Below, in pieces: positions 8,049-8,932 of a stretch of 64,000 nt of DNA. Origin of the DNA: Methanosarcina sp. KYL-1 (lineage in GTDB: Archaea; Halobacteriota; Methanosarcinia; Methanosarcinales; Methanosarcinaceae); NCBI RefSeq assembly GCF_024372725.1, contig NZ_VOUA01000016.1:1-64000 (forward strand), read 5' to 3'. The notes under the pieces are model-generated. The model was not told the DNA's origin, did no database searches, and saw only the letters and a list, made by a program, of their open reading frames with translations. The position numbers and the translations under genes are program-made. How positions within the stretch are numbered: position 1 is the first letter of the stretch; each line of letters starts with the position of its first letter.

Positions 8049-8312
8049 TCAAACTGCTGAAACGCCCATGTCTATGCACAGCAGTTCCGCCTGCTTGAGG
8101 ATACTCTCTGTCGCAAGTTTCTGTTTGTCGGGTGGGTAACCGTATTTTTTCAGGAGCCGCTTTACGCTGACTTTCATCTTTGCCTGGATGTTTTTCCTGA
8201 CAGTCCAGTCAACCCCTGCGTTCTTCCTGATGATCCCGACAAGTTCTGCTGCCATGAGCCTCAGGGTCTCGTCGCCCAGAACTTCTACGGCACTTTTTAC
8301 TATCTTTTTTTC
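8049..8312 (-). pseudogene. C-terminal remnant of type I restriction subunit HsdR
   Basis: The conceptual translation contains [10 protein letters not shown], then R-K-N-x-x-V-D-W-T-V-R, [15 protein letters not shown] and K-Q-A-E-L-L. These are the hallmarks of the C-terminal helical region of type I restriction endonuclease R subunits. In the intact protein this is only the last 80-90 of about 800-1000 residues. An internal ATG at 8255 gives a 68-codon frame, but homology continues upstream of it to about 8312 without a start. No helicase, nuclease, HsdM or HsdS sequence is present. The fragment ends 86 bases from the MITE-like element. It is a relic of a lost restriction locus. Confidence 0.8.
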
Positions 8313-8397
8313 TGTCGGCGTCCCCTCTTCAGATTGACAATAGGTATTTAATTTTGACAGGATACCGAAGATGTCTTATGTTATTGAATTTCCAAAA

Positions 8398-8688
8398 TAC
8401 TAATCTGGATTAGTACTCTGACTTTCCGCAGATGTCTCCAAAAAATAACATTTTTCCTGTTATCGTTTTTGGAGAATTATTTGAAAATTTGCAGTAATAA
8501 TCTCAACTGAAGCTTAGGGAAATGGCTGCTGGAAGTTTTCAATGAAGGCAAAAAGCCAAAAATGTTGGAAAATCATCAAAAACACACGTTTGAGTAAACA
8601 TGGGATTTTTCAGAAAAACGATAGCAAGAAAAATTGTGAAAATTGAAAGGACATCTGCGGAAAGTCGGAGTACTAATTACGATTAGTA
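8398..8688. mobile_element. MITE-like element with about 39-bp terminal inverted repeats
   Basis: Bases 8398-8436 and 8650-8688 form inverted repeats that match at about 35 of 39 positions, ending in TACTAATC and GATTAGTA and including ACTTTCCGCAGATGTC. The 213 bases between them are AT-rich, without an ORF of useful length. They contain a second partial inverted match (TATCGTTTTT near 8460 and its complement near 8620). Size, TIRs and lack of coding fit a non-autonomous transposon. I could not define a target-site duplication. The family of the parent transposase is unknown and none lies in the window. Confidence 0.75.
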
Positions 8689-8704
8689 TTATTTTCCAGC
8701 ATTT

Positions 8705-8932
8705 GAGCAATTATCTCTTTTTTCAAATGCGAATGGCGAAGCCTGAACCGCCCCTCCGCCGAAAAGTTCCTCTAAGCCCTGGAACAAAAAGCCCCCCTCG
8801 TCCAGTGGCAAAACGAAACTCGCCGCGAAACCTTCGGGCTCCTTACCAGGAAAATAGAAGGCAAAAAAGAACCCCGGAAAAAAGGCTATCTGGTCTTTGA
8901 CCTGGAGGATTTTGAAAAAGCTCTCTTATGAA
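8705..8932 (+). pseudogene. Decayed ORF fragment of unknown family
   Basis: A plus-strand frame translates as coding-like sequence (E-W-R-S-L-N-R-P-S-A-E-K-F-L) up to a TAA near 8772. It then continues in the same frame (A-L-E-Q-K-A-P-L-V-Q-W) to a final E-D-F-E-K-A-L-L and TGA at 8930. One in-frame stop and no start suggest a broken gene tail. I do not recognise the family. It begins within about 20 bases of the MITE right end, so insertion and decay may be linked. Confidence 0.35.

Follow-up and report, generated by a model that had tools for sequence, protein, structure and literature searches.

Insertion sequences (ISs) of the IS1634 family duplicate 5–6 bp of their target. Two MITEs attributed to ISs of this family are listed for Methanosarcina in Table 4 of PMC3852290 and are the described elements closest to the one analyzed here: a 247-bp MITE of M. 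barkeri attributed to ISMba11, with 23 copies, inverted repeats (IR) of 20 and direct repeats (DR) of 6, and a 249-bp MITE of M. acetivorans attributed to ISMac10, with 15 copies, IR 18 and DR 0. Activity of an IS1634 transposase has been shown in another system, with 6-bp repeats flanking the active IS1634 according to a figure legend, and the same source describes PCNA binding by a peptide from the M. barkeri IS1634 transposase (PMC4549789).

The window analyzed in this work comprises 64,000 nucleotides of Methanosarcina sp. KYL-1 (contig NZ_VOUA01000016.1, positions 1–64,000). It contains a 251-bp non-coding element at 8418–8668 on the forward strand, which we interpret, with a probability of about 0.95, as a non-autonomous IS1634-type MITE that was moved in trans into a palindrome overlapping the start of an ATPase_2/DUF234 gene. 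Compared by description only, as the two relatives are tabulated, the element agrees with the ISMba11 MITE in genus, size, ends and 6-bp repeats, and with the ISMac10 MITE in size and inverted repeats, although the DR of the latter is listed as 0. Judged against that table (PMC3852290), the MITE itself is ordinary, and our analysis contributes further copies and a parent for an element type that the table already includes for this genus.

Extent and structure of the element

An earlier note on this DNA, made from the sequence alone, had described a 291-bp MITE-like element with near-perfect 39-bp inverted ends. The inverted match is real, as 8398–8436 and 8650–8688 agree at 35 of 39 positions and a repeat search of the region returned 41-nt inverted arms at 90%, but two different structures are combined in it. 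Multicopy comparison together with the fit of the target-site duplication (TSD) set the boundaries of the MITE at 8418 and 8668, and the element drawn earlier therefore extended about 20 bp too far at either end. The element begins and ends with the IS1634-type termini CTGACTTTCCGCAGATGTC ... GACATCTGCGGAAAGTCGG, and its own terminal inverted repeats are 19 nt long (left, 8418–8436, plus strand; right, 8650–8668, minus strand), complementary to each other at 18 of 19 positions and resembling the ends of IS1634 elements. The outer 18–20 bp of the 39-bp ends, which match each other at 17 of 20 bases, represent an older palindrome that the insertion split into halves.

The copies found in relatives led to the same extent: most matches started at query positions 28–31 and ended at 276–283, which indicated a shared unit of about 251 bp rather than 291 bp. 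If the whole 291 bp were one element with 39-bp ends, the 35 of 39 matching end positions would be accounted for, as would the few copies whose BLAST matches reach somewhat past the core (L004, query 5–283; L025, query 2–277). This interpretation is refuted by the outer sequence, which is uninterrupted and MITE-free in relatives and is also present at ATPase genes across the phylum, and we regard it as very improbable.

Within the 251-bp MITE, the second internal inverted match reported earlier was recovered as a subterminal pair spanning 8450–8634 (arms 8450–8470 and 8614–8634, 90%). The interior is non-coding, as had been claimed, with no ORF of at least 60 aa lying wholly inside, so that the element is both short (under 500 bp) and free of a transposase ORF. 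Folding of the single strand of this region was 8.7 s.d. better than that of 100 dinucleotide shuffles (z −8.67), and such a strong hairpin might also be expected of a structured RNA gene or an attenuator that is not a transposable element at all. An Rfam scan of 8200–8900 gave at best 34.5 bits against the 211 required, with an unrelated microRNA model, and the scattered copies, with their TSDs and empty sites, are as expected of transposition; an RNA gene or attenuator is thus the explanation to which we give the least weight, close to none.

Copies in the KYL-1 genome and in relatives

A DNA search of the KYL-1 genome with 8390–8700 yielded 21 matches at E ≤ 0.1. Four of these are full-length loci (the window copy, C3:159466, C5:120142 and C5:88664) and one is an interrupted copy (C2:134471–134844), the remaining matches being fragments or inverted self-matches. 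Of the 39 genomes compared, KYL-1 included, 21 gave MITE matches, all of them Methanosarcina and representing 21 of the 24 genomes of that genus that were searched; the other three (G006, G015 and G021) gave no MITE match. The BLASTN-type comparison that the earlier note had proposed thus revealed multiple dispersed copies both within the genome and across the genus. One relative, G019, has 19 full-length copies at a mean identity of 99.8%.

Several loci deserve mention in their own right. The interrupted copy of KYL-1 (L005, G000:C2) is split by about 130 bp, at about 134651–134782, and this insert has inverted ends of its own, GGACTTACGCA ... TGCGTAAGTCC, and looks like a second, nested MITE. 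Another KYL-1 locus (L012, 188715–188781 of G000:C3) is a 67-bp derivative that retains both MITE ends with almost nothing between them. Outside the genus, the exact 19-nt end motif occurs in Methanolobus psychrotolerans; at the ten loci tested (L152, L155, L156, L158, L159, L161, L174, L176, L179 and L201), the stretch around the motif gave no match to the MITE profile or to a transposase; perhaps these motifs belong to another element with the same ends.

Target-site duplications and empty sites

The MITE in the window is flanked by two copies of AGTACT (8412–8417 and 8669–8674), as defined by the boundary fit at 8418–8668. This fit, in which offsets and lengths were varied, was based on 69 loci, with both ends in reach at 66 of them (L022 and L135, which have no anchor, and L029, at a contig edge, were left out), and 6 bp was the longest well-supported duplication. 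An exact 6-bp TSD was present at 33 of the 66 sites, whereas when the right flanks were shuffled 2000 times, 0.86 sites on average and at most 6 had one; five of the 33 sites lacking it (L105, L107, L119, L122 and L127) have a 5-bp duplication by eye. The exact duplications fit the pattern nTnnAn, with T at position 2 and A at position 5 in 57 of 66 strand-symmetrised counts, and the AGTACT of the window departs from this pattern. The idea that the MITE generally favours palindromic sites was considered and rejected, since flank symmetry was 3.21 of 11 against 3.02 ± 0.17 for shuffled flanks, with the window copy and L028 alone standing out.

As AGTACT is itself palindromic, the duplication at the window site could pass for a longer inverted repeat. 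Empty sites holding a single copy answer this reading: the window flanks joined with one AGTACT align without interruption in G008 (88%), G002 (86%) and G003 (83%). A looser version was observed in G014 (81%, over query 3–44 only), which is likewise uninterrupted. The search for empty sites in relatives, also proposed earlier, was thus successful, and the uninterrupted state of the outer sequence in these relatives indicates that the outer 18–20 bp of each end predate the MITE.

The parent IS and the proposed mobilization

The parent, which the earlier note had not recognised, was traced by looking for pairs of the end motif in inverted orientation at a wide spacing. Elements of 1708–1709 bp in relatives have the ends of the MITE, beginning C[TC]GAC[TC]TTCCGCAGAT, and encode an intact 531-aa transposase that matches the IS1634 family model (NF033559, transpos_IS1634; E 1.4e-114 and 1.1e-117, 384 and 394 bits with a cut-off of 100) as well as PF14104 (DUF4277) and PF01609 (DDE_Tnp_1) in Pfam. 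The full-length IS with the same ends that had been sought is therefore an IS1634 element. The MITE resembles the ISs of this family in its terminal inverted repeats, in the 5–6-bp duplication seen at its TSD sites and in its partner transposase (PF14104 plus DDE_Tnp_1), and differs from them in that it has no transposase and is related to the IS through its terminal 40–50 bp alone. With the MITE profile, matches in the IS were limited to its ends, within about 50 bp, the best having an E of about 4e-5; the reversed IS, used as a control, gave no match. Formation of the MITE body by simple internal deletion of the IS was unsupported, as no IS match extends beyond 40–50 bp of the ends.

Methanosarcina also has MITEs of the IS5, IS1182 and IS630 types (PMC3852290, Table 4), and several Methanosarcina MITE families of 89–418 bp are listed in that source, so that a miniature form of one of these other IS families might be considered. 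The ends and the 6-bp TSD, however, match the IS1634 element, and the other IS1634 groups of Methanosarcina have different ends (for example, CCTAGATTCGGCAGGT), which makes the end match specific to the 531-aa group; an origin from another IS family thus seems most unlikely.

We propose that a full-length IS with the common ends would supply an IS1634-family DDE transposase in trans, and that this transposase would recognise the common ends and insert the MITE by a 6-bp staggered cut at AGTACT, which lies in the middle of a double palindrome at the start of the ATPase_2/DUF234 gene, after which gap repair would leave AGTACT duplicated. The ends, the duplication, the multiple copies, the empty sites and the matching intact IS in relatives are directly seen and uphold the earlier designation of the element as a MITE; mobilization in trans by an IS1634 transposase is inferred. 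In KYL-1 itself, no match was found to the 531-aa protein at E 1e-20 or to the IS1634 family model at E 0.001, which indicates that the window copy is probably stranded and now immobile, and that mobilization in this genome would be a matter of history.

A different situation is found in G019, where four intact IS copies (93–94% protein identity) are present alongside the 19 MITE copies. This co-occurrence fits recent mobilization, and the genome looks like a case of a recent MITE burst with the presumed driver IS still intact. Among eight IS copies read, L056 alone has matching 6-bp flanks of its own. The four IS copies of G019 (L219–L222) share their flanking 6-mers in a ring (ATTTCA, ATTATT, ATAAAA and TTTCAA, allowing for strand), which suggests that each copy had a 6-bp duplication and that flanks were later exchanged by recombination; an erroneous join during assembly of this metagenome would produce the same picture.

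Flanking gene remnants and the interrupted palindrome

Both gene remnants reported earlier beside the element are present. On the left, the hsdR remnant is the C-terminal part of a type I restriction HsdR-like protein (8049–8255, minus strand; PF11867, E 1.2e-23). On the right, the broken ORF, which had been left unnamed, preserves the C-terminal portion of an ATPase_2/DUF234 protein, broken by one internal stop (8728–8931, plus strand), as judged by visual comparison of its frame with the L218 protein, a DUF234 match. The place of the ATPase start codon in intact relatives is occupied by ACG at 8679–8681. The suggestion that insertion accompanied the decay of this locus was not supported. Among relatives that are MITE-free at the site, G008 has an ATPase match with three in-frame stops, and G002 and G003 gave no ATPase match at E 1e-30; as these MITE-free relatives likewise hold remnants, decay does not need the insertion, and a causal role of the MITE was not supported. 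The ATPase_2/DUF234 gene in the window is a pseudogene through other changes as well.

More interesting than the MITE is the sequence into which it was inserted. Across the phylum, the double palindrome ACTAATnnnnATTAGTACTAATnnnnATTAGT is found at ATPase_2/DUF234 genes, where it overlaps the start codon with a constant spacing. In the window, its two dyads are parted by the MITE into a left part (8399–8417, plus strand), uninterrupted in relatives, and a right part (8675–8687, plus strand), and the joined flanks match the motif with 0 mismatches at its 26 fixed positions. We searched for the palindrome at two levels (palindrome loci L213–L214, L223–L240 and L283–L302). At the order level, 18 of 99 genomes had a match, with one control match in one genome, and the full double dyad was present at 18 of the 20 loci read. 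A start codon lies at +23 in 17 of these 18, opening a protein that begins M/V-I-S-[KT]-F, and has been lost in L227; among the 17 frames, L233 is cut short by the contig end, and L234 and L236 are short because they are broken. At the phylum level, a match was found in 31 of 392 genomes, with no control match listed, and a homologue of 453–465 aa begins at +23 at 16 of the 20 loci read, the exceptions being L284, L289, L292 and L293. When 30 homologue loci retrieved by a single protein search were compared, the palindrome was present at all five with 59–68% identity (0–2 mismatches at the 26 positions) and absent at all 25 with 29–40% identity (8–12 mismatches).

The palindrome looks like a control site common to many archaea. 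We lean, somewhat beyond even odds, towards an undescribed 32-bp cis-element, probably an autorepression operator, in which the start codon of one ATPase_2/DUF234 subfamily is fixed at +23 across the phylum and whose dyads the MITE would have severed in the window. Literature queries (DUF234 with ATPase; the string TTAGTACTAAT; a mixed query), judged by titles, found no description of it. The ATPase may regulate its own gene through this element, and a palindrome at fixed spacing from the start codon in a poorly understood archaeal ATPase family offers a directly testable regulatory hypothesis. In two intact ATPase proteins, a weak TrmB winged-helix match (E about 1e-5) was observed at approximately residues 242–292.
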